Below, piece by piece: positions 5,036 to 48,991 of a stretch of 64,000 nt of DNA (position 1 is its first letter; every line of letters begins with the position of its first letter). Position numbers and translations under genes: made by a program. Source of the DNA: Fidelibacterota bacterium 408169. Its GTDB lineage: Bacteria; Fidelibacterota; Marinisomatia; Marinisomatales; TCS55. The notes below the pieces were generated by a model. It was not told where the DNA came from. It did not search any database and saw nothing but the letters and a program-made list of their open reading frames with translations. The stretch is taken from contig NNSG01000008.1 in assembly GCA_002256485.1 (NCBI GenBank), forward strand, positions 1 to 64,000, written 5' to 3'.

Positions 5036-6532
5036 CTAAAAGCTGGGCTGGTATTCGCCGAACACTTCACGTAAAGAATCGGCAATTTCCCCGAGTGTGC
5101 AATCTTGCCTGACACATTCAATAATGGAAGACATAATATTTTCAGAACCGGAAGCAATTATTTTCAATTCTGATAATCGATTCTTTACATGATCACTATT
5201 TCGGTCAGCTTTAAAATCGGCTACATGTTTTATTTGGTCTTCGACAGCAGTTGGATCGATAGCCAGTAGATCAGATTCATTAGTTTCATCGCTCGTAAAT
5301 TTATTTACACCCACAATTATTTGATCAGCAGAATCCACTTTAGATTGATACTCATAGGCACTTCGAGCAATTTCACTTTGCACCCAGCCTTTTTCAATCG
5401 CGTCTACGGCACCACCCATTTTGTCAATTTCAGCTATGATGTCTTTCGCTTCTGCTTCCAACTGATCTGTTAATGCTTCAACAACATAACTCCCTCCAAA
5501 AGGATCGGGATGATTAGTAATGCCTGATTCATGAGCGATAACTTGTTGAGTACGAAGAGCCAGTTTAACTGCATTATCTGATGGCAACGCCAGTGCTTCG
5601 TCTCGCGAATTAGTATGGAGGGATTGCGTTCCGCCTAATACAGCAGACATAGCTTGGATGGTTGTGCGAACAACATTATTATCAATTTGTTGAGCTGCAA
5701 GTGTTGAGCCACCCGTTTGGGTATGAAAACGGCACATCATGGCCTTTTCTTCTGTTGTACCAAAACGGTCTTTCATAATGTGTGCCCACATGCGTCGAGC
5801 TGCACGAAATTTGGCCACTTCGGTCAAGAAATCATTATGAGAATTAAAAAAGAAAGAAAGACGTTTACCAAAACGATTTACATCCAATCCTTCATCAATG
5901 GCAGCTTGGACATAAGCAATACCATCCGCCAATGTAAATGCCAGTTCCTGGGCTGCTGTTGAACCTGCTTCACGAATGTGATATCCGGAAATGGAAATCG
6001 TATTCCAATTTGGAACATGATCGGAACAGAAACTAAAAATATCCGTTACAATCCGCATGGAAGGTTCAGGCGGATATATGTAGGTACCCCTTGCAATATA
6101 TTCTTTCAGTATATCGTTCTGAATTGTACCTTTCAATTTTTGGGTTGAAATTCCCTGTTTTTCTGCTGTAACAATATAGAAAGCCAGAAGAATAGCAGCT
6201 GTGGCATTGATTGTCATGGATGTGGAAACAGAATCCAGTGGAATGTCCTTAAATAATCTGATCATATCTTCAGACGTAGAAATGGGTACCCCTACTTTGC
6301 CTACTTCGCCATTCGCTAAATCATGATCTGAATCATATCCAATTTGTGTGGGTAAATCGAATGCGACGGATAATCCGGTAACACCTTGATCTAATAGATA
6401 GCGATAGCGTTTATTGGATTCATCTGCCGTAGTGAAGCCCGCATACTGACGCATAGTCCAAAGACGTTTTTGATACATTTTCGGATAAATACCACGGGTA
6501 AATGGGAATTGGCCGGGGCTTTTTTTGTTCAA
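5036..6532 (-). CDS. Methylmalonyl-CoA mutase large-subunit-type protein (catalytic barrel only)
   Basis: Acyl-CoA mutase TIM-barrel domain, which rearranges (R)-methylmalonyl-CoA and succinyl-CoA using adenosylcobalamin. Family signatures are clear: [27 protein letters not shown] (active-site Tyr), [27 protein letters not shown] (active-site His) and [19 protein letters not shown]. At 498 aa it lacks the cobalamin-binding domain (no D-x-H-x2-G near the C-terminus). It also lacks about 50 residues that usually precede the barrel. The start is TTG at 6532, overlapping the DnaJ-like gene by 4 bases. A separate small B12-binding subunit is expected elsewhere; none is in this window. Confidence 0.9.
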
Positions 6533-18248: not shown

Positions 18249-19019
18249 ATGAAGATTTGCGTTTTAGTCAAACAAGTTCCAGGAAGTGAAGCACAATTTA
18301 GTGTTTCTGCAGATGGATCATGGATCCAGGAAACGGGACTCCCATTTGAAATGAATGAAAGCGATAATTATGCTTTAGAAGAAGCATTACAGATTCGCGA
18401 ACAAAAGGACGAGGGTGAAGTGGTTGTTGTCAGTTTAGGTCCTGACCGTTGTCAGAAAGTGATTCGAGAAGCGCTGGCTAAAGGAGCAGATCGGGCCATA
18501 CATATCAAGGAAGATGCTCCTTATAATACGGATCCATTTTCAATCGCCACAGCTTTGGCAAACACGATTAAGGATGAAAAGTTTGAATTGGTTCTTTCTG
18601 GACTGCAATCCGATGATCTTGGTTTTGGTCAAACAGGGGTCATTTTAGGTGAAATTTTAGGAATGACGACTGCAACACTAGTGGTAGGGACAGAAATCCA
18701 AGATGGAAAAATTAAGGTGAAGCGAGAGTTGGAATCAGGTTGGTTTCAATGGCAAACTATGGATCTGCCAGCCAGCCTGGCAATTCAATCAGGATTAAAT
18801 CAACCACGCTATCCATCATTGAAAGGGATAATGGGTGCAAAGAAAAAAGAAATAAAAGAATCATTATTCGTTGACATGTGTGATATAGATGGGCTGCAAT
18901 CATTCAATGGTTTATCTGTACAGCGTGCAGAAAAACAAACAGAAATGATTGAAGGAACTGTGGACCAAGTAGTAAGCAAACTTGTAGATGTTTTCAAAAA
19001 CGAAATACGAATTAATTAG
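18249..19019 (+). CDS. etfB: Electron transfer flavoprotein beta subunit
   Basis: Small subunit of the ETF that accepts electrons from acyl-CoA dehydrogenases. The 256 residues start MKICVLVKQVPGSEAQF, typical of the family, with NESDNYALEEALQI, VVSLGPDRCQKVIREALAKGADRAIHI and LVLSGLQSDDLGFGQTG. The latter two form the AMP-site fold. It is first in an operon with etfA, an EMO-like membrane Fe-S protein and a carboxyltransferase, pointing to acyl-CoA oxidation feeding the quinone pool. The ATG follows GAGGAAAACAA. Confidence 0.95.
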   Translation: MKICVLVKQVPGSEAQFSVSADGSWIQETGLPFEMNESDNYALEEALQIREQKDEGEVVVVSLGPDRCQKVIREALAKGADRAIHIKEDAPYNTDPFSIATALANTIKDEKFELVLSGLQSDDLGFGQTGVILGEILGMTTATLVVGTEIQDGKIKVKRELESGWFQWQTMDLPASLAIQSGLNQPRYPSLKGIMGAKKKEIKESLFVDMCDIDGLQSFNGLSVQRAEKQTEMIEGTVDQVVSKLVDVFKNEIRIN

Positions 19020-19027
19020 GGGGAGTG

Positions 19028-19996
19028 ATGGATATACTCGTTGTATTAGAAGATAAAAATGGAATGATTCACCGTATGAGCCAAGAAGCCATTACTGGCG
19101 CTCAACGCATTGGCAGTGAATTCAATTTAAGCGTTGGAATTTTAGCTATGGGTGGTAATGCAGCTGCACTTTCTGATCAGGCAGCACAGTACGATGTAAA
19201 TGAAGTTTTAACACTGGAAAATGAGCATTTGAATCATTATACAGCTGATGGTTACGGAGCAGCAGTTGCCCAAGTCGTTACCAATGAAAATCCTAAATAT
19301 GTTTTCTTTGGACATACTTATCAAGTTCGCGACTATGTACCCAGAGTAAGTGCAAAATTAAAAAGACCGTTTTTGAATGATGCTGTATCTTATTCTTCTG
19401 AAGGAGGAAATCCTGTTTTCAGCAAGCAGGTTTTAAATGCCAAACTTGTTGCAGCTTTGCAACCCAATGATGGCGGTACCATTTTAATTAGTTTTCAATC
19501 GGCAGCATTTTCTTCAGAAAATATTCAAAGTGGTTCAGCAAATGTACGATCAATATCAGTTGATATTGATTCTGCTGAGATTAAGACAGTGACTGAAGAT
19601 CCTTTCCAGGAAGAAGCAGGCGGAGTAGATTTGTCCAGTGCAGAATTAATTGTATCAATTGGTAGAGGAATTGGAAAAGAAGAAAATATTCTCCTTGCTC
19701 AAGAATTAGCAAATACCATAGGCGCTGAAATTGCTTCTTCTCGTCCAGTAGTGGATTCAGGTTGGCTGCCCTCTCATCATCAAGTGGGCAGTTCCGGACA
19801 AACGGTATCTCCAAAACTCTATTTAGCTTTGGGAATTTCCGGTGCCATTCAGCATGTGGTTGGGATGAAGGGATCAAAAAATATTGTCGTCATTAATAAG
19901 GATCCGGATGCACCATTATTTGAATTAGCGGATTATGGTGTTGTGGGTGATATGCTGGAAATTGTACCTAAACTGACGGAAGCATTGGATAGATAA
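19028..19996 (+). CDS. etfA: Electron transfer flavoprotein alpha subunit
   Basis: Large ETF subunit. The FAD-binding C-terminal domain is clear: VSIGRGIGKEENI, IASSRPVVDSGWLP, QVGSSGQTVSPKLYLALGIS, GAIQHVVGMKGS, and VINKDPDAPLFELADYGVVG. Eight bases separate it from etfB. I chose ATG 19028; the frame could also begin at the GTG one codon earlier (19025). With EtfB it should carry electrons from acyl-CoA dehydrogenases (not in this window) to the membrane protein encoded next. Confidence 0.95.
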   Translation: MDILVVLEDKNGMIHRMSQEAITGAQRIGSEFNLSVGILAMGGNAAALSDQAAQYDVNEVLTLENEHLNHYTADGYGAAVAQVVTNENPKYVFFGHTYQVRDYVPRVSAKLKRPFLNDAVSYSSEGGNPVFSKQVLNAKLVAALQPNDGGTILISFQSAAFSSENIQSGSANVRSISVDIDSAEIKTVTEDPFQEEAGGVDLSSAELIVSIGRGIGKEENILLAQELANTIGAEIASSRPVVDSGWLPSHHQVGSSGQTVSPKLYLALGISGAIQHVVGMKGSKNIVVINKDPDAPLFELADYGVVGDMLEIVPKLTEALDR

Positions 19997-20075: not shown

Positions 20076-22094
20076 ATGCTTTATCCATTAGAACGAATCA
20101 TTTTTGTATTAGCTGTTTTTGTATCCGTTGGATTGTCATGGGTCACATTCAGCAAAATGTTCAAGGTAATCAGTCGTGGAACCGATCCCATTGACTGGAA
20201 AAAGGCTCTGGCAAATTTCCCAAAAGGGTTTGGAGTCTTCTTAAGCCAGCGCACTCTTTTTAAAACACGACCCTTCATCGGTGGTATTCATGCTGCAGTT
20301 GCTTGGGGGTTTACTCTCTACATGGCTGTCAATGTGGTGGATATTCTTTATGGAATGATTCCCGGATTTCATTTCCTTCCTAATAATATAATAGGGGATA
20401 TTTACAGGTTTTTTGTGGATATCTTCAGTCTGTTGGTTATAGGCGGAGTGAAATATTTTATCATCAGACGATTTCTTGCTAATGATCAAAAGCTTATTGT
20501 AAACAAACCGGTTTTATTAAGTGAATCAGCGAAAAAAGGGATGCGGCGTGATTCTTTTATTGTGGGTATGTTTATACTTTGTCATGTAGGATTTCGCTTA
20601 ATTGGGGCTTCATTTGAAATATCACTCCACGGTTCGGACTGGAGTCAACCAGCTGCAACAGTATTATCGTTTGTTTGGACATGGTTAGGAATGGCAGACG
20701 GATCATTCGTAATCGGTGAACATATTAGTTGGTGGTTGGCATTGGGATTAATATTAGCATTTCTACCATATTTCCCATATTCCAAACATGCCCATTTATT
20801 TATGGGCCCACTTAATTATATGGCGACAAAAGAACGTCGTTCACCGGCAACGTTGGAAATTATGGATTTGGAAGCAGAAGATGCTGAACAATTTGGGGCA
20901 TCAAAATTAGAACATTTACCACAGAAAGAATTGCTGGATGGATATGCATGTATTATGTGTAGTCGCTGCCAGGATTTATGTCCTGCTTATACTACAGGGA
21001 AAGAATTATCACCCTCCGCCATCGAAATCAATAAACGATATTATTTTAATGAGCATTTAACCTCCTTGGCCAAGGGTGAGGAAACGACTGAGCCATTACA
21101 TAAATGGATGTTATCGGAAGAGGCCTTATGGTCCTGCACAACCTGTGGATTTTGTGTAGATGTGTGTCCGGTTGGAAATGAGCCCATGGTGGATATTTTA
21201 CGCATTCGCCAGGATTTGGTGCTCATGGAAAGCAAATTTCCTCAAGATGCAATGGATGTATTTAATAAAATTGAAACATATGGAAATCCTTGGGGAATGT
21301 CACCTCAAGATCGAGAAAAATGGATTGAGGGGCAAAACGTACCTGTCATGAGAGAAAAGGGAACAGCAGAATATTTATATTGGGCTGGATGTGCAGGAGC
21401 ATACGATGACAGGGGAAAAGATATTTCCAAATCAATTGTTAAAATATTGAATAAAGCAAATGTGGATTATGCTGTTTTAGGGAATGAAGAAACATGTACT
21501 GGTGATTCAGCCCGGAGAATCGGGAATGAATATCTTTTTCAAATGCAAGCCATGCAGAACATGGAGAATTTTGAAAAATATGGAGTGAAGAAAATCATTA
21601 CTCAATGCCCCCATTGCCTAACTACGTTGAAAAATGATTATGGTGAAATTGGTATTGAGCTTGAAGTTATTCACCATTCACAATTTATTGATCAACTTCT
21701 CGCTGAGGGGAAAATAAAACCGGAAAAAAACCTAACCGATAAAATAACATTCCATGATGCATGTTATGTTGGGCGCCATCAGGGAGAATACGAAGCACCA
21801 AGGGATGTGCTACAAGCAGTCATGGCTGATAAAAATAATCTGATTGAAATGAAGCGAACAAAAGACCAAAGTTTCTGCTGCGGTGCGGGTGGTGGAAATA
21901 TGTGGTATGAAATCAATACGGGTAAACGCATTAATATAGAACGGTTTGAAGAAGCAATCGAAACAGGTGCAAAAAAAGTTGCTACATCCTGTAATTTTTG
22001 CATGATAATGATGGAAGATGCCAGAAAAGTGACCGGTCAGGATGAAACAATGGAAGTTGTTGATATCGCTGAATTAGTCGCCGAGCGTCTTTGA
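20076..22094 (+). CDS. Membrane Fe-S oxidoreductase, ETF:menaquinone oxidoreductase (EMO)-like
   Basis: A fusion of a NarI-like membrane cytochrome b segment with HdrD/GlpC-like Fe-S domains (672 aa). About five to six helices span residues 5-240, with several His in helices (GGIHAAVAWG, CHVGF, GEHISWWLALG). Two 4Fe-4S motifs follow (CIMCSRCQDLCPAYTTGKEL and CTTCGFCVDVCPVG). The C-terminus has two CCG domains (WAGCAGAY...ETCTGD, and FHDACYVGRH...SFCCGAGGG). Next to etfBA this matches the EMO type described in anaerobic fatty-acid oxidisers, which passes ETF electrons to menaquinone. The first CCG has Thr in place of its second Cys (ETCTGD). Confidence 0.85.
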   Translation: MLYPLERIIFVLAVFVSVGLSWVTFSKMFKVISRGTDPIDWKKALANFPKGFGVFLSQRTLFKTRPFIGGIHAAVAWGFTLYMAVNVVDILYGMIPGFHFLPNNIIGDIYRFFVDIFSLLVIGGVKYFIIRRFLANDQKLIVNKPVLLSESAKKGMRRDSFIVGMFILCHVGFRLIGASFEISLHGSDWSQPAATVLSFVWTWLGMADGSFVIGEHISWWLALGLILAFLPYFPYSKHAHLFMGPLNYMATKERRSPATLEIMDLEAEDAEQFGASKLEHLPQKELLDGYACIMCSRCQDLCPAYTTGKELSPSAIEINKRYYFNEHLTSLAKGEETTEPLHKWMLSEEALWSCTTCGFCVDVCPVGNEPMVDILRIRQDLVLMESKFPQDAMDVFNKIETYGNPWGMSPQDREKWIEGQNVPVMREKGTAEYLYWAGCAGAYDDRGKDISKSIVKILNKANVDYAVLGNEETCTGDSARRIGNEYLFQMQAMQNMENFEKYGVKKIITQCPHCLTTLKNDYGEIGIELEVIHHSQFIDQLLAEGKIKPEKNLTDKITFHDACYVGRHQGEYEAPRDVLQAVMADKNNLIEMKRTKDQSFCCGAGGGNMWYEINTGKRINIERFEEAIETGAKKVATSCNFCMIMMEDARKVTGQDETMEVVDIAELVAERL

Positions 22095-22109: not shown

Positions 22110-23861
22110 ATGGCGAACAATAATCATTTTTACCTGCCTTTTGAAAAACAAAAATCGTTTGATTATTCACCCAATTCAATTGAAAGAATAACTGAATACG
22201 AAAAATACCAACTTTCTTTTCATCCTGAACGACCAAAGTATTTAGATTACCTTGAATGTTTTACAAAAGTTGAGGAATGTTTTTCAAGTGATAATTTTGG
22301 TTCGTGTCTAATACAGACTCATCGAGCAGAATTCAATGGTATTCAATTGATGCTTGTAGGCCAGCAAAGTGGACCTTCTTCTAATTATAAAGATATTCGA
22401 GGGTCCATGGTTGATCCTGAAATTGTTGTTAAATGGAACCATGGAATGCCAACTCCGGCTTCTTATAAAAGAGCAGTAAAAGCAATTAAAACTGCTGATG
22501 ATGAAAAAAGAATTGTAATTACATTTTTGGATACTCCGGGAGCTGATCCGACTGAAGAGGCAGAAGAAGGGGGAATTGCATGGGAAATCGGGAATACAAT
22601 TCACGCTTTAGCAGAGGCAGTACGTCCAACTATGTCACTTATAATGAACCGCGGTTGCAGCGGTGGGGCTATTGCTTTAACTGGTTGTGATATTATTCTG
22701 GCCATGGAATATTCTACCTATTTGGTAATATCACCGGAAGCGGCATCATCCATTTTATTTCACACACGACAGGAAGCAAACCATGCCGCTGAAGCCATGT
22801 GGATTACATCCAAAGAAGGAAAGAAAGTGGGTATCGTTGATGAACTCATTTCTGAAGCATCGGGTCCGGCTCATAAATTTCCTGACAAAGCAAAACAAGC
22901 GTTTGCACATGCATTAGAAAAATGGTTAACACAATTTGAACAAATACCGGATGAAGACGTATTTGAAAAACGTATTAACCGCTGGAAAAAAATTGGACAT
23001 TGGAATGAATCAACTCCTGAAGAATTTTCAAGTTTTACATCCGTTAAATCTCGTATTCCAACTTCAGAGAAAAGTGGTTTTATTAAGCGCCATAAGGATT
23101 GCAGGAATGTAGCGGAAAAAAGAATTTTTGATCCACAGCATTACGAATCTTTATTGGAAAATGATTTTGTATGTCCTGATTGTCTGCGTCGATACACGCG
23201 CCTCTCTGCTTGGGATTATATTCATTATGCCTTAGACAAAGATTCCTTTGCTGAACATAAGGAAACAAAATTTCTAGTAGATAAAGATATCCTTGGTTTT
23301 CCGGGTTATCAGAAAAAATTGAAAGAAACTCAAAATAAAACAGGACTTGCTTCTGCCATGATTACCGGCGATGGGACTATTAATGGTCGCCCTGTTGTTT
23401 ATTGCGGGACAGATTTTGGTTTTTTAGGTGGATCTTATTGTATGTCAACAGCAGAAAAAATCTGGAGAGCTTCAGAAATTGCTTTGAATAAAAAAGTACC
23501 CATGATTCTACAAGCTGCAGGTGGTGGCGCTCGCATGCATGAGGGTTGTTCTTCCATGGTGGGAATTCCCAAAGCCCATGTAGCGTTAACACGCGTTGAG
23601 AGAGCCGGATTAAAAGTAATTACACTGATCACTGATCCAACATTAGGTGGCGTGGCGATTGGATATGCTTCTCGGGGAATTAGATTATTTGAAGAACACG
23701 CCGGTAATATTGGTTTTTCCGGTAAGCGGGTTATAGAACAATATACCGGACATAAAACCAGCCGGGATTTTCAAATGACTGAATGGCTCAAAGAAAAAGG
23801 ACACGTGGAAAAAACATTTAAATTGAAGACGCTACGGAAAACTTTAGCTGGATTATTATAA
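22110..23861 (+). CDS. Fused acyl-CoA carboxyltransferase, AccA-AccD order
   Basis: Biotin-dependent carboxyltransferase of 583 aa. Residues about 30-280 match AccA (RPKYLDYLECF, MPTPASYKRAVKAIK, TFLDTPGADP, CSGGAIAL, VISPEAASSILF). Residues about 325-583 match AccD (ITGDGTINGRPVVYC, LGGSYCMSTAEK, AAGGGARMHEG, LTDPTLGGV-like, GFSGKRVIEQYTGHK). A possible zinc site is H328/C331 with C355/C358, where AccD has four Cys. Known natural fusions and PccB-like subunits run beta then alpha; this one is alpha then beta. It follows the EMO-like gene by 15 bases. The substrate could be acetyl-CoA or another acyl-CoA. Confidence 0.85.
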   Translation: MANNNHFYLPFEKQKSFDYSPNSIERITEYEKYQLSFHPERPKYLDYLECFTKVEECFSSDNFGSCLIQTHRAEFNGIQLMLVGQQSGPSSNYKDIRGSMVDPEIVVKWNHGMPTPASYKRAVKAIKTADDEKRIVITFLDTPGADPTEEAEEGGIAWEIGNTIHALAEAVRPTMSLIMNRGCSGGAIALTGCDIILAMEYSTYLVISPEAASSILFHTRQEANHAAEAMWITSKEGKKVGIVDELISEASGPAHKFPDKAKQAFAHALEKWLTQFEQIPDEDVFEKRINRWKKIGHWNESTPEEFSSFTSVKSRIPTSEKSGFIKRHKDCRNVAEKRIFDPQHYESLLENDFVCPDCLRRYTRLSAWDYIHYALDKDSFAEHKETKFLVDKDILGFPGYQKKLKETQNKTGLASAMITGDGTINGRPVVYCGTDFGFLGGSYCMSTAEKIWRASEIALNKKVPMILQAAGGGARMHEGCSSMVGIPKAHVALTRVERAGLKVITLITDPTLGGVAIGYASRGIRLFEEHAGNIGFSGKRVIEQYTGHKTSRDFQMTEWLKEKGHVEKTFKLKTLRKTLAGLL

Positions 23862-40516: not shown

Positions 40517-41059
40517 TTAATTTTTTTCAAGTGTTTCAGCACCGTATTGAAATCCTTTATCAAATGCTTCGATATTGATATCAATAAATCGTTCCGGGAC
40601 AGAACCGGGCAACGCTTTTTTCATCGCTTCAGAATTCACAATTTTTGTTATAGCTGTGAAAAATCCAACCATAACCACATTTGCAAATATACGGTTACCC
40701 ATTTCTTCAGCGATACGAGTAGATGGGATGCTATGCATAGTTACATCTTTACGGATTTTATGTGGCTTTACAAGATCAGTGTCTGTAAGGAGAGTACCGT
40801 TGGGAGCTAAATCATCCAGAAATTTTTCGTATGCTTCTTGAGACATACTTACCAAAATCTCCGGACGAACAATATAGGGATAGAGAATTGGTTCTTCATC
40901 GATGACCAATTGCGCTGAACAAGCGCCGCCTCTTGCTTCCGGTCCGAAGCTCTGTGTTAAAGTAGCGAATTTGTCATCAAAAAGTGATGCCGCTTTTCCG
41001 ATCAACGTTCCTGATTTAATAATTCCTTGACCTCCGAATCCTGAAAATTTAATGTCCAT
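40517..41059 (-). CDS. korC: 2-oxoacid:ferredoxin oxidoreductase, gamma subunit
   Basis: Gamma subunit of a four-subunit 2-oxoglutarate-type oxidoreductase. Typical family features are DIKFSGFGGQGIIKSGTLIGKA, LTQSFGPEARGGACSAQLV and VSMSQEAYEKF. The ATG at 41059 (MDIKFSG) gives 180 aa. The frame extends upstream to 41092, but that part overlaps korB and is not conserved. It overlaps korB by 11 bases. It is the last kor gene before the Hdr-related genes. Confidence 0.93.
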   Translation of the reverse strand: MDIKFSGFGGQGIIKSGTLIGKAASLFDDKFATLTQSFGPEARGGACSAQLVIDEEPILYPYIVRPEILVSMSQEAYEKFLDDLAPNGTLLTDTDLVKPHKIRKDVTMHSIPSTRIAEEMGNRIFANVVMVGFFTAITKIVNSEAMKKALPGSVPERFIDINIEAFDKGFQYGAETLEKN

Positions 41060-41963
41060 TATTTGGCCTCCTGTAAGGTACGTACTGGTCACCCAGTTTC
41101 TTATTTAAAAATGTATCCCGTGCTTCAGTGAACGTCGGTTTATCCTTATCAACAAATTTCCCAACAATGATTTTCTTTTGATATTCTATATCCACTTCCC
41201 GGGTATCCGCACCGTGCTGAATAGTCGCACTATCGTGATAGAATTTCATTGTGTCCAAACCGGTACCCAGCCTGTTTCTCCGGGCATAAAGAGTGGGGCA
41301 GGGAGAAATAATTTCGATAAATGAGAAACCCGGTTTTTGCAATGCTTCAGAAATAGCATTGGTCAATCTACGGATGTGTAGGGCCGTCCATCGTGCCACA
41401 TAAACGGCGCCGCTGGATTCAGCTAAAAAGGGCAGGTTAAATGGATATTCATAACAACCATAGGGAGTGGTGGAAGCGTTGGCTTCTAAGGGTGTGGTGG
41501 GTCCAGCTTGACCACCGGTCATAGCATAGTTAAAATTGTTGATGCAAATGATATTCAGGTCAATATTTCGTCTGGCAGAGTGGATGAAATGATTCCCACC
41601 GATGGCTGCAATATCACCATCACCGCTGATGACAGACACCTTTAATTCGGGATTTCCCAATGCCAATCCTGTGGCAAATGGAAGGGCCCGTCCGTGGGTG
41701 CTATGGAAGCTGTCTAACCTCAAGTATCCAGCAGCACGGCCGGAACATCCGATTCCTGACACCACAGCTACTTTTTCCGGATCTAATCCTGATTTTTGAA
41801 GTCCACTTATGTAGGCTGTCACAATCGTTCCAATCCCGCAGGAAGAACACCAAATATGGGGAAAACGTTCCGAACGAATATAGGATTCCAAGGGATGTTT
41901 AAGATTTTCTTTTGGCTCCGGAATTGTTAATGTATCTGTGTAATCTGTAGTGGGTTCACTCAT
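41049..41963 (-). CDS. korB: 2-oxoacid:ferredoxin oxidoreductase, beta subunit (TPP-binding)
   Basis: Carries thiamine diphosphate and an Fe-S cluster: IWCSSCGIGTIVTAYI, the VSGIGCSGRAAGYL segment, the THGRALPFATGLALGNP block, the TPP/Mg motif SGDGDIAAIGGNH, and INNFNYAMTGGQ. 304 aa. It overlaps korA by 4 bases. Oxidises 2-oxoacids with CoA and passes electrons to ferredoxin. Confidence 0.95.
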   Translation of the reverse strand: MSEPTTDYTDTLTIPEPKENLKHPLESYIRSERFPHIWCSSCGIGTIVTAYISGLQKSGLDPEKVAVVSGIGCSGRAAGYLRLDSFHSTHGRALPFATGLALGNPELKVSVISGDGDIAAIGGNHFIHSARRNIDLNIICINNFNYAMTGGQAGPTTPLEANASTTPYGCYEYPFNLPFLAESSGAVYVARWTALHIRRLTNAISEALQKPGFSFIEIISPCPTLYARRNRLGTGLDTMKFYHDSATIQHGADTREVDIEYQKKIIVGKFVDKDKPTFTEARDTFLNKKLGDQYVPYRRPNNGH

Positions 41964-43120
41964 TTGATACTCTCCTCGATGGCATTTAATATATCTATTG
42001 GATCATGGACCCAGCCTCCTGCGTGGGGAACGAGAATTGTTTTAGCTTCTCCGTTGGCACAGCGTTCTACTTCCAAAACAATCTGCCCCAAGTTGATTTC
42101 CGGAACCACAAATGCCTTCACGGATTTTGCCAGTTCACGAATTCGGCTTTCGGGGAAAGGCCAAACGGTTACCAACCTTATTGTTCCAACTTTTAAGCCT
42201 TTCTCTCTGGCTGATTCCACAGCCTTCATGGCAACCCTGGAAGAAATTCCATACGAAACGACTACAACATCCGCGCCTTCTACTTGATTTTCTTCAATGA
42301 TCCGAATTTTTTCTTCATTTTTTAGAATTTTATTTACCAGATGTGTTACGTTTTTCTCTTGGGCTTCCGCATTAATCACAGGATAACCCCGTTCGTCGTG
42401 GGTCAAACCGGTAATGTGGATAAAATAACCGTCTCCTGCTTTCACCAGAGGAGCCACAGAATCTGCTCCATTAAATTTGAAAGGACGATAATCTTCTTTT
42501 TTCCCTTTATAAAATTTTCTGGGTGTAACGTCAATTTTATCTGCATTGGGGATAACGACTTTTTCAGTCATATGACCTACACATTCATCCATCATAAATA
42601 AAACAGGGACACGCCATTCTTCAGAAAGATTAAATGCTTTTACAGTTAAATCGAAACATTCCTGTGGAGAATTAGGTGATAATGCAATTATTTCATAATC
42701 CCCGTGAGAACCCCAGCGAGCTTGCATCATATCCGCTTGTCCGGTGAGTGTGGGTAGCCCTGTAGATGGGCCGCCTCTTTGTACGTTTACAACTACACAA
42801 GGTACTTCCATCATTGCTGCTAAACCCAAATTTTCCATCATCAGTGAAAAACCGGGGCCGGATGTAACAGTCATGGATTTTGCTCCTGCCCAGACAGCCC
42901 CAGATACTGCAGCCATGGATGCCAACTCATCTTCCATCTGGATAAACACGCCACCCACTTTCGGAAACCGTTCTGCCATACGTTCTGCTACTTCAGTAGA
43001 CGGTGTAATGGGATATCCCGCCAGAAATCTGCATCCACCTGCAATGGCGCCTTCCGCACAGGCATGGTCTCCATCCAAATAATAACTTCCCGTTGCGACA
43101 CCGATTGGATCAGCTTTCAT
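41960..43120 (-). CDS. korA: 2-oxoacid:ferredoxin oxidoreductase, alpha subunit
   Basis: Alpha subunit with the pyrimidine-binding and transketolase-C-like parts: GCRFLAGYPITPSTEVAERM, EDELASMAAVSGAVWAGAK, TSGPGFSLMMENLGLA and VVNVQRGGPSTGLPT. 386 aa. The 2-oxoglutarate preference (Kor rather than Por) is suggested by the YPITPSTEVAE pattern and by the separate subunits, but is not proven. It overlaps the ferredoxin gene by 11 bases. Confidence 0.94.
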   Translation of the reverse strand: MKADPIGVATGSYYLDGDHACAEGAIAGGCRFLAGYPITPSTEVAERMAERFPKVGGVFIQMEDELASMAAVSGAVWAGAKSMTVTSGPGFSLMMENLGLAAMMEVPCVVVNVQRGGPSTGLPTLTGQADMMQARWGSHGDYEIIALSPNSPQECFDLTVKAFNLSEEWRVPVLFMMDECVGHMTEKVVIPNADKIDVTPRKFYKGKKEDYRPFKFNGADSVAPLVKAGDGYFIHITGLTHDERGYPVINAEAQEKNVTHLVNKILKNEEKIRIIEENQVEGADVVVVSYGISSRVAMKAVESAREKGLKVGTIRLVTVWPFPESRIRELAKSVKAFVVPEINLGQIVLEVERCANGEAKTILVPHAGGWVHDPIDILNAIEESIK

Positions 43121-46115: not shown

Positions 46116-47963
46116 ATGAAAAAAACACTAAAAAATGTTGAAAATGTAATCATCCGTTTTGCAGGTGATTCAGGAGATGGTATGCAGCTTACGGGCGGAC
46201 GATTTACTGAAACCACAGCAATTGTGGGAAATGATATTAGTACACTCCCGGATTACCCTGCAGAAATTCGGGCACCTGCCGGTTCGTTGGCTGGTGTGAG
46301 TGCGTTTCAAATTAATTTCAGTTCTAAAGATATCCATACACCCGGAGATAAGGTGGATGTTTTAGTCGCTATGAATCCGGCTGCATTAAAAGTTCATATG
46401 AACGAGTTGGAGCATGGTGGAATGCTTATATGTAATACAGCCAGCTTTACAAAGAAAAATCTGACGTATGCCGGTTATGATTCCAATCCTTTGGAAGATG
46501 GTTCATTGGAAGACTTTTTCAATGTGTTTGCCATTGATATGAGCAAAATTGTTTTAGAAGCATGTTCGGATATGGATTTACCGCCTAAGACAGTTGAACG
46601 CACTAAAAATTTATTTGCTTTAGGACTTCTATTCTGGATTTTTGACAGGCCAACTGAAACAACCAAATCCTGGTTGAGAAAAAAATTCGCTAAACGGCCT
46701 GAGTTGATTGAAGCAAATGTCCGAGCGTTGGATGCTGGATATAATTATGGTGAAACGACTGAAATATTTATGACTCGATATATGGTGGATAAAGCGGATT
46801 TACCCCCGGGAACGTATCGAAATATAGTCGGAAATTATGCAGTCTCACTTGGATTAGTTGCTGCAGCCGAAAAATCTAACTTACCTCTTTTTTATGGTGG
46901 TTATCCCATTACACCCGCTAGCGATATACTTCATATTCTATCCTCGTTAAAATACCATAATGTAAAAACGTTTCAAGCCGAGGATGAAATTGCCGGAATG
47001 ACATCTATAATTGGAGCAGCGTTTACCGGAAACTTGGCTGTTACAGCCTCTTCCGGTCCTGGGATTGCCTTAAAAGGTGAAGCGCTTGGCCTCGCTGTCA
47101 TGGCCGAGTTGCCCATGGTTATTGTCAATGTACAGCGCGGTGGACCCAGCACAGGATTACCAACCAAAACAGAACAATCAGATTTATTTCAAGCGCTGTA
47201 TGGACGCAATGGTGAAGCCCCCATACCTGTAATCGCTTCAGCCACACCTGGCGATTGTTTCTACACCGCTTATGAAGCATGCCGAATAGCCCTTAAGTAT
47301 ATGACACCTGTTTTTGTTCTAACAGACGGCTATTTGGCGAATGGCTCTGAACCATGGCTTATACCTAATGTGGATGACTTGGAACCAATTGAAGTTAAAT
47401 TTGCAGACACATCCACATTGGTTGATGGGCAGTTCATGCCCTACTTGCGGAATAAGGAGACTTTGGCGCGGCCGTGGGCAATTCCCGGAGTATCAGGATT
47501 GGAGCATCGCATAGGCGGATTAGAAAAAGAAGATGGTACCGGTAATGTCAGTTATGATCCAGAAAATCATCATCAAATGACATTGAATCGCCAACAGAAA
47601 ATAAACAATATTGTGAACGAAATTCCTCCAACAGATGTTTTTGGAAAAGCAAGTGGAGACATGTTAATATTAAGTTGGGGAGGAACAAAAGGATCCTGCC
47701 GTTCTGCAACTGAAGATTTGCAGAAAGAAAGTAAGTTAGTCAGCCATATTCATTTAAGGTGGTTAAATCCTTTACCCAAAGATTTAGGAGAAATTTTAAT
47801 CCGCTACAAACACGTATTAATACCGGAAATTAATATGGGTCAATTATCAAAAATTATTCGCGCTGAATATCTTGTGGATGCCCAAGGATTAAACTTAGTT
47901 AAGGGAAAACCAATTGGTAAAGGGCGAATCATAGAAAAAGTAAATGAAATGTTGGGATGCTGA
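46116..47963 (+). CDS. 2-oxoacid:ferredoxin oxidoreductase, fused gamma-alpha subunit
   Basis: Large subunit of a two-subunit 2-oxoglutarate-type oxidoreductase (615 aa). The gamma part (about 1-190) has VIRFAGDSGDGMQLTGGRF and PAEIRAPAGSLAGVSAFQI. The alpha part has FYGGYPITPASDILHIL, EDEIAGMTSIIGAAFTG, ASSGPGIALKGEALGLA and VNVQRGGPSTGLPTKTEQSD. This KorAB type is also found in organisms such as Mycobacterium. It is not the same enzyme as the four-subunit set at 40-43 kb. It overlaps the beta-subunit gene by 7 bases. Confidence 0.94.
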   Translation: MKKTLKNVENVIIRFAGDSGDGMQLTGGRFTETTAIVGNDISTLPDYPAEIRAPAGSLAGVSAFQINFSSKDIHTPGDKVDVLVAMNPAALKVHMNELEHGGMLICNTASFTKKNLTYAGYDSNPLEDGSLEDFFNVFAIDMSKIVLEACSDMDLPPKTVERTKNLFALGLLFWIFDRPTETTKSWLRKKFAKRPELIEANVRALDAGYNYGETTEIFMTRYMVDKADLPPGTYRNIVGNYAVSLGLVAAAEKSNLPLFYGGYPITPASDILHILSSLKYHNVKTFQAEDEIAGMTSIIGAAFTGNLAVTASSGPGIALKGEALGLAVMAELPMVIVNVQRGGPSTGLPTKTEQSDLFQALYGRNGEAPIPVIASATPGDCFYTAYEACRIALKYMTPVFVLTDGYLANGSEPWLIPNVDDLEPIEVKFADTSTLVDGQFMPYLRNKETLARPWAIPGVSGLEHRIGGLEKEDGTGNVSYDPENHHQMTLNRQQKINNIVNEIPPTDVFGKASGDMLILSWGGTKGSCRSATEDLQKESKLVSHIHLRWLNPLPKDLGEILIRYKHVLIPEINMGQLSKIIRAEYLVDAQGLNLVKGKPIGKGRIIEKVNEMLGC

Positions 47964-48991
47964 TCATGGCAGATGTAAAAACAGTCGAAAAGAAAAAATA
48001 TTCTCGGATGGATTTTACTTCGGATCAATCTGTACGCTGGTGTCCCGGATGCGGCGATTACGCCATTCTAACACAAACACAAAAAGTGTTTCCGGAATTA
48101 GGCATTGATAGGGAAAACATCGTTTTTATTTCAGGCATTGGTTGTTCCAGCCGATTTCCATATTACATGAATACCTATGGTTTTCATACCATTCACGGTC
48201 GTGCAACTGCCATTGCCTCCGGCGTAAAGATTGCCAATCCTGATTTGTCAGTGTGGGTTGTGACCGGTGATGGAGATGGACTTTCTATTGGTGGTAATCA
48301 TACGATTCATCTATTACGCCGCAATATAAATATAAATGTAATGCTGTTTAATAACCGCATTTATGGTTTAACCAAAGGCCAGTATTCACCTACGTCCGAA
48401 GTTGGAAAAATTACAAAATCAACCCCATTTGGTTCTTTGGATAGACCGTTTAATCCACTCACTTTAGCTATGGGGGCACAAGCGACATTTGTAGCCAGGT
48501 CCGTTGATCGAGATACGAAACATATGCAGGCTATGATTGAACGATCACATAAGCATAAAGGAACATCCTTCCTTGAAATTTATCAAAATTGCCTTATTTT
48601 TAATGACGGAGCCTTTGCTTCAATGACAAATAAAGAATCAAAAGCAGATAATGTCCTGCGCCTTGAACATGGCAAACCTATGCTCTTTGGAAAAGAAAAT
48701 AAAAAAGGAATAAAATTAAGCGATAATGTTCCGGAAATTATTGAAATAGGCGATAACTATTCCATAGATGATGTGTTGATTCATAATGAACAAGATTATG
48801 TTATAGCATCAATGTTGGCTAATTTTACCTATCTGGATATTTTCCCTGATCCGGTAGGTGTTTTGTATGCAATAGATGTTACACCCTATGATGATCTTGT
48901 AGTTCAACAAATCGATGAAGCTATTGGTCATCATGGTACGGGGAGCATTAAAGAGTTATTGAATTCCGGAAACACATGGATTGTGGAGTAA
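47957..48991 (+). CDS. 2-oxoacid:ferredoxin oxidoreductase, beta subunit
   Basis: TPP-binding partner of the preceding gene (344 aa). Motifs: [58 protein letters not shown], the TPP site [13 protein letters not shown], and [17 protein letters not shown]. Two starts fit: ATG 47957 or ATG 47966 ([10 protein letters not shown]). It is followed by fumarase 4 bases after its stop. The pair fits a complete or reductive TCA segment. Confidence 0.94.

Follow-up and report, generated by a model that had tools for sequence, protein, structure and literature searches.

A single-chain AccA-AccD carboxyltransferase as a probable component of propionyl-CoA carboxylase in Neomarinimicrobiota and green sulfur bacteria

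A gene at 22110..23861 of the window (the whole 64,000-nt stretch analysed here, from a genome of 2.47 Mb that is 95% complete) joins an AccA-like carboxyltransferase (CT) half, in one chain, to an AccD-like half that follows it. This fusion is quite probably the CT subunit of a propionyl-CoA carboxylase of the acetyl-CoA carboxylase (ACC) type, propionyl-CoA being the substrate that we infer. A wider account also seems likely: a propionyl-CoA carboxylase that came from the CT lineage of acetyl-CoA carboxylase, with an alpha-first AccA/AccD fusion and a His-Cys3 zinc ribbon, would be common to Neomarinimicrobiota and green sulfur bacteria, would use the AccB and AccC of fatty-acid synthesis, would substitute for CTs of the PccB/MmdA type and would be the carboxylase of propionate assimilation in Chlorobi. 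In favour of propionyl-CoA, the window genome has a methylmalonyl-CoA mutase, no PccB, no OadB and one biotin carboxylase; against it, both halves of the fusion are closest by sequence to acetyl-CoA carboxylase. A search of the open-licence literature found no earlier report of this fusion.

Domain order of the fusion

The gene is a 583-aa ORF with an ATG start on the + strand, matched by PF03255 and then by TIGR00515 and PF01039. Its alpha half (residues 21-296; 22170..22997, +) matches PF03255 (ACCA) with an E-value of 8e-59, and its beta half (residues 346-583; 23145..23858, +) matches TIGR00515 (accD) with an E-value of 1e-52 as well as PF01039. These matches confirm the alpha-before-beta order proposed in the preliminary description, which had named two beta-like halves as a finding that would overturn it. 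That possibility is rejected, since the halves, when cut apart and scored separately, match ACCA (E 4e-59) and accD (E 3e-53), respectively. The arrangement is neither that of the canonical ACC CT, with its separate alpha and beta subunits, nor that of PccB-type proteins, with a full-length PF01039 match in beta-alpha order: PF01039 gives two partial matches in reversed order, profile positions 286-428 in the first half and 15-182 in the second. A profile search found no match to a biotin carboxylase or biotinyl domain on the chain.

The window fusion falls under the curated cut-off of all AccA and AccD models, scoring 194 against 357 bits for the NCBIfam AccA equivalog and 179 against 317 bits for that of AccD. 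None of the NCBIfam families fits the fusion or its relatives better than the AccA and AccD models, a comparison made for the relatives on E-values only.

Zinc ribbon, conserved residues and predicted structure

A His/Cys3 zinc site had been suggested from the window protein and, as far as sequence can tell, this is right, the site being conserved in every intact homologue examined. The motif is H328-x2-C331-x23-C355-x2-C358 (23091..23183, +). The form HxxC-x23-CxxC is kept in 29/29 aligned homologues from both phyla, in 10/10 further Chlorobi and in 70/71 ORFs of a larger set, which holds near-duplicate loci from two collections and so does not represent 71 independent genomes; the exception is a 501-aa call that ends before the motif. 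The motif of Escherichia coli AccD is CxxC-x15-CxxC, and the fusions do not have this Cys4 form.

Both Gly pairs of the canonical CT halves are present in the fusion. Gly185-Gly186 in the alpha half (22662..22667, +) is at least 97% conserved across 34 fusions and 12 canonical AccA, and Gly513-Gly514 in the beta half (23646..23651, +) is at least 97% conserved across 34 fusions and 11 canonical AccD; judging from other CTs, the former probably forms an oxyanion hole. Positions that are conserved and identical in fusions and canonical subunits number 45 in the alpha half and 35 in the beta half, and a further 13 and 11, respectively, are conserved within each group yet differ between the two, as where canonical GE201-202 of the alpha subunit becomes NR180-181. 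No residue proving propionyl over acetyl specificity emerged from this comparison of fusions with canonical AccA and AccD. Ala189 of the fusion, aligned by eye, falls at what is presumably the position of the specificity Asp of PccB.

A monomer model of the fusion from 24 sequences (mean pLDDT 68.6, pTM 0.80) matches AccA and AccD structures, each half separately, and so confirms the two folds; the relative placement of the domains and the active-site loops are uncertain in it.

Distribution and lineage

A scan with patterns built from the single window protein, which pick up close relatives only, recovered the fusion from an uncultured marine phylum, Candidatus Marinimicrobia/Neomarinimicrobiota, and from Chlorobiaceae; beyond these it matched only one protein, an ordinary AccA from a Bacteroidales metagenome-assembled genome (MAG). 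The fusion occurs in 24/149 sampled Neomarinimicrobiota and, within the class to which one Chlorobium belongs, in 76/98 sampled genomes, several of which have very large contigs; most of the genomes are MAGs and absences are provisional. Trees made for each half place all fusions in one group, with support of 100/100 in both and a long stem, separate in both trees from the housekeeping AccA and AccD that these lineages also have. Because they form one strongly supported group in both trees, the fusion sequences fit a single old fusion event. At one locus (L093, 662-2492; genome G145) the fusion is split into two overlapping ORFs in different frames, either by a frameshift or by an assembly error.

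Gene neighbourhood and gene content in Neomarinimicrobiota

The window fusion starts 15 nt after the stop of an EMO-like gene and is co-directional with the three genes ahead of it. These are an etfB-like gene for an electron transfer flavoprotein beta subunit (18249..19019, +; PF01012), an etfA-like gene for the alpha subunit (19025..19996, +; PF00766 and PF01012) and the gene for the EMO-like membrane Fe-S/CCG oxidoreductase of the ETF:menaquinone oxidoreductase type (20076..22094, +; two CCG stretches and a 4Fe-4S dicluster). The placement after etfBA and EMO was thus described correctly at the outset. The order in Neomarinimicrobiota is etfB-etfA-EMO-fusion, and an etfB-like gene is among the neighbours of the fusion in many of them. 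The immediate neighbours in the window are etfBA and EMO and not the methylmalonyl-CoA mutase, whose catalytic chain without a B12 domain (5036..6532, -; TIGR00641, E 9e-225) lies 16 kb away; in several related genomes the mutase is ~8-20 kb from the fusion on the same contig. A second mutase of the window genome is on contig C34. Elsewhere in the window (40517-43120 and 46116-48991) are two gene sets like 2-oxoacid:ferredoxin oxidoreductases, with a fumarase-like gene after the second.

The search of the genome for separate Acc genes suggested in the preliminary description found all four: accA on contig C1 (103677), accD on contig C23 (78075) and, on C34, a single accC with accB adjacent. 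The fusion is therefore an extra carboxyltransferase, and its candidacy as the sole ACC of the organism is rejected given the separate accA and accD. Neither a full-length PccB-type CT nor an OadB/MmdB membrane subunit was found in the window genome.

At four Neomarinimicrobiota loci (L083, 3242-7120; L088, 8689-12557; L087, 862-4527; L091, 9011-12655) the fusion lies between a gene for an Eco57I-type DNA methyltransferase and a small conserved ORF of ~104-169 aa that matched nothing in Pfam or PADLOC. In several members of the phylum a restriction-modification-like pair has apparently inserted on either side of the fusion. At another locus (L085, 11411-15745; genome G114) a 1039-aa Cas9 stands beside the fusion and neighbouring ORFs are Cas1/Cas2-like.

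The propionate operon of Chlorobi

The fusion in Chlorobi lies in an operon with the order propionate-CoA ligase, methylmalonyl-CoA epimerase (MCE), fusion, MutA, MutB and MeaB. The ligase scores 774 bits with PRK10524 against 657 with AcsA, and the epimerase scores over its cut-off. Where the flanks are long enough, the ligase is present in 32/32 cases, MCE in 35/35, MutA in 35/35, MutB in 32/32 and MeaB in 28/29; these counts include 10 more divergent genomes of the class, which have the same operon order, and leave out the Neomarinimicrobiota locus L025. The operon enzymes lead from propionate to succinyl-CoA, and the fusion stands at the sole step that they leave unfilled, that of propionyl-CoA carboxylase. 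A trait of propionyl-CoA carboxylases, linkage to the genes for methylmalonyl-CoA epimerase and mutase, is thus present in Chlorobi.

A route from propionate to succinyl-CoA in Chlorobium and other green sulfur bacteria was proposed in a review from labelling, and a role for the fusion as the CT of propionyl-CoA carboxylase fits that route. Together with the separate Acc set of the window genome, the operon supports the initial proposal that this acyl-CoA carboxylase is catabolic or dedicated and not a housekeeping enzyme. More informative than etfBA and EMO alone, on which that proposal leaned, are the methylmalonyl-CoA pathway genes in relatives.

PccB/MmdA-type carboxyltransferases, OadB and biotin carboxylase

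A high-scoring CT of the PccB/MmdA type is found in 0/24 Neomarinimicrobiota genomes with the fusion and in 82/125 of the others (Fisher 3e-10, without phylogenetic correction, so that shared ancestry inflates the statistic). Full-length PF01039 proteins in this phylum comprise, besides this high-scoring class (82 genomes), one with lower scores, which adjoins HMG-CoA lyase where inspected and is therefore probably methylcrotonyl-CoA carboxylase; such MccB-like CTs occur alongside the fusion in 12/24 fusion genomes. The PccB/MmdA gene starts 2-4 kb from the mutase gene in the 24 genomes in which both starts were compared, these being genomes with the best matches on one contig and not a random sample. 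Three of the five PccB/MmdA loci that were opened look, by eye, like complete MmdA-OadG-BCCP-OadB operons beside mutase and epimerase. Since some PccB-type loci look like Mmd operons, what exclude each other are two routes between propionyl-CoA and methylmalonyl-CoA, and not strictly two carboxylases. Mutase is present in 142/149 Neomarinimicrobiota, many of which lack both the fusion and a high-scoring PccB/MmdA CT, so the presence of mutase does not require either.

For Chlorobi, the idea that the fusion replaces a PccB that is simply absent is rejected, as seven genomes have one or two PccB-type proteins. Those of one Chlorobium genome examined lie away from the fusion operon, one with OadG (OAD-gamma-like) and OadB (OAD-beta) in a decarboxylase arrangement and the other between 5S-like and 1.3S-like subunits in a transcarboxylase arrangement. 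One Chlorobium genome (L080, 6487-10201; L079, 8129-11689) holds a 5S-12S-1.3S-like transcarboxylase cluster, a separate MmdA-OadG-OadB cluster and the fusion operon.

OadB is absent from 24/24 Neomarinimicrobiota fusion genomes, the window genome included, and from 3/8 Chlorobi tested; a place for the fusion in a Na+-pumping methylmalonyl-CoA decarboxylase is accordingly rejected for Neomarinimicrobiota. Exactly one biotin carboxylase is found in 30 of 32 fusion genomes, with two in one genome and none found in another, and AccC and AccB are therefore probably shared between fatty-acid synthesis and the fusion.

Proposed reaction and alternatives

Under the propionyl-CoA carboxylase reading, the housekeeping AccC would carboxylate the biotin of AccB using ATP and bicarbonate. 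The carboxybiotin would then move to the fusion, where the AccD-like half would form the biotin side of the active site and the AccA-like half the acyl-CoA side; two fusion chains probably pair, by analogy with AccA2AccD2. Transfer of the carboxyl group to propionyl-CoA would give methylmalonyl-CoA, to be converted to succinyl-CoA by epimerase and mutase. The propionyl-CoA may come, in Neomarinimicrobiota, from the breakdown of branched-chain amino acids or odd-chain fatty acids, the electrons of which would exit via EtfBA and EMO, and in green sulfur bacteria from assimilated propionate.

The best profile and fold matches of the fusion are to the AccA and AccD of acetyl-CoA carboxylase, as would be expected if it were a second acetyl-CoA CT supplying extra malonyl-CoA. 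This is unlikely with a full housekeeping Acc set in the same genome, scores far under the AccA and AccD equivalog cut-offs and a Chlorobi operon that is that of the methylmalonyl-CoA pathway. The operon equally points to propionyl-CoA and away from other acyl-CoA intermediates in the degradation of branched-chain amino acids or fatty acids, such as methylcrotonyl-CoA or butyryl-CoA. A carboxylase for one of these would suit the link to etfBA-EMO in Neomarinimicrobiota and the liv-type transporter genes and acyl-CoA synthetase seen by eye near the fusion in L091, but we consider it quite unlikely, as several genomes carry, in addition to the fusion, MccB-like CTs that lie next to HMG-CoA lyase at the loci inspected.

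The direction of the reaction must also be weighed. As some high-scoring PccB-type proteins of other Neomarinimicrobiota are the MmdA of Mmd operons beside mutase, the fusion could substitute for the reverse reaction, as a component of a methylmalonyl-CoA decarboxylase or transcarboxylase that yields propionyl-CoA without a biotin carboxylase. The distribution of OadB given above and the propionate-CoA ligase of the Chlorobi operon, which implies the forward direction, make this very unlikely.

A propionyl-CoA carboxylase of this kind would assign a gene to the step proposed for green sulfur bacteria between propionate and succinyl-CoA, and would give a block of Neomarinimicrobiota a means of completing the methylmalonyl-CoA pathway in the absence of PccB. 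Propionyl-CoA specificity would then have arisen within the AccA/AccD lineage, and one biotin carboxylase would serve both fatty acid synthesis and propionate metabolism. Automatic annotation of the fusion as acetyl-CoA carboxylase would mask the propionate pathway in the genomes that carry it.

Comparison with known carboxyltransferases

The halves of the fusion are homologous over most of their length to the separate AccA and AccD subunits (E. coli, 2f9y; Staphylococcus aureus, 2f9i), with 29-35% identity in a fold search, and share with them the conserved Gly pairs and a zinc ribbon that opens the beta half. The fusion differs from these subunits in being a single chain with alpha first, in its HxxC-x23-CxxC motif, in its methylmalonyl-CoA pathway context and in fixed changes such as the NR180-181 of the alpha half.

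PccB/AccD5-type propionyl-CoA carboxylase beta subunits belong to the same CT superfamily and catalyse the reaction proposed for the fusion, and in many Neomarinimicrobiota a PccB/MmdA gene beside methylmalonyl-CoA mutase gives a likeness of context. They differ in their beta-alpha order, their length of ~510-530 aa and their far higher PF01039 scores, and high-scoring genes of this type are missing from fusion-bearing Neomarinimicrobiota. The actinobacterial AccDA is a fused CT of the bacterial ACC type in beta/alpha order, opposite to that of the fusion.

The reversed order noted in the preliminary description therefore stands as the opposite of PccB but is not unprecedented: in Shewanella AccADCB (PDB 9kkm) AccA is also ahead of AccD in one chain, so the alpha-first order was already known. 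The Shewanella protein matches the fusion model collinearly over the whole query (TMq 0.63), and residues 135-286 of its 1517 aa are AccA-like. Unlike the fusion, it carries, by its name, BC and BCCP as well and is called an acetyl-CoA carboxylase, and in sequence it resembles the fusion less closely than E. coli AccA or AccD does.
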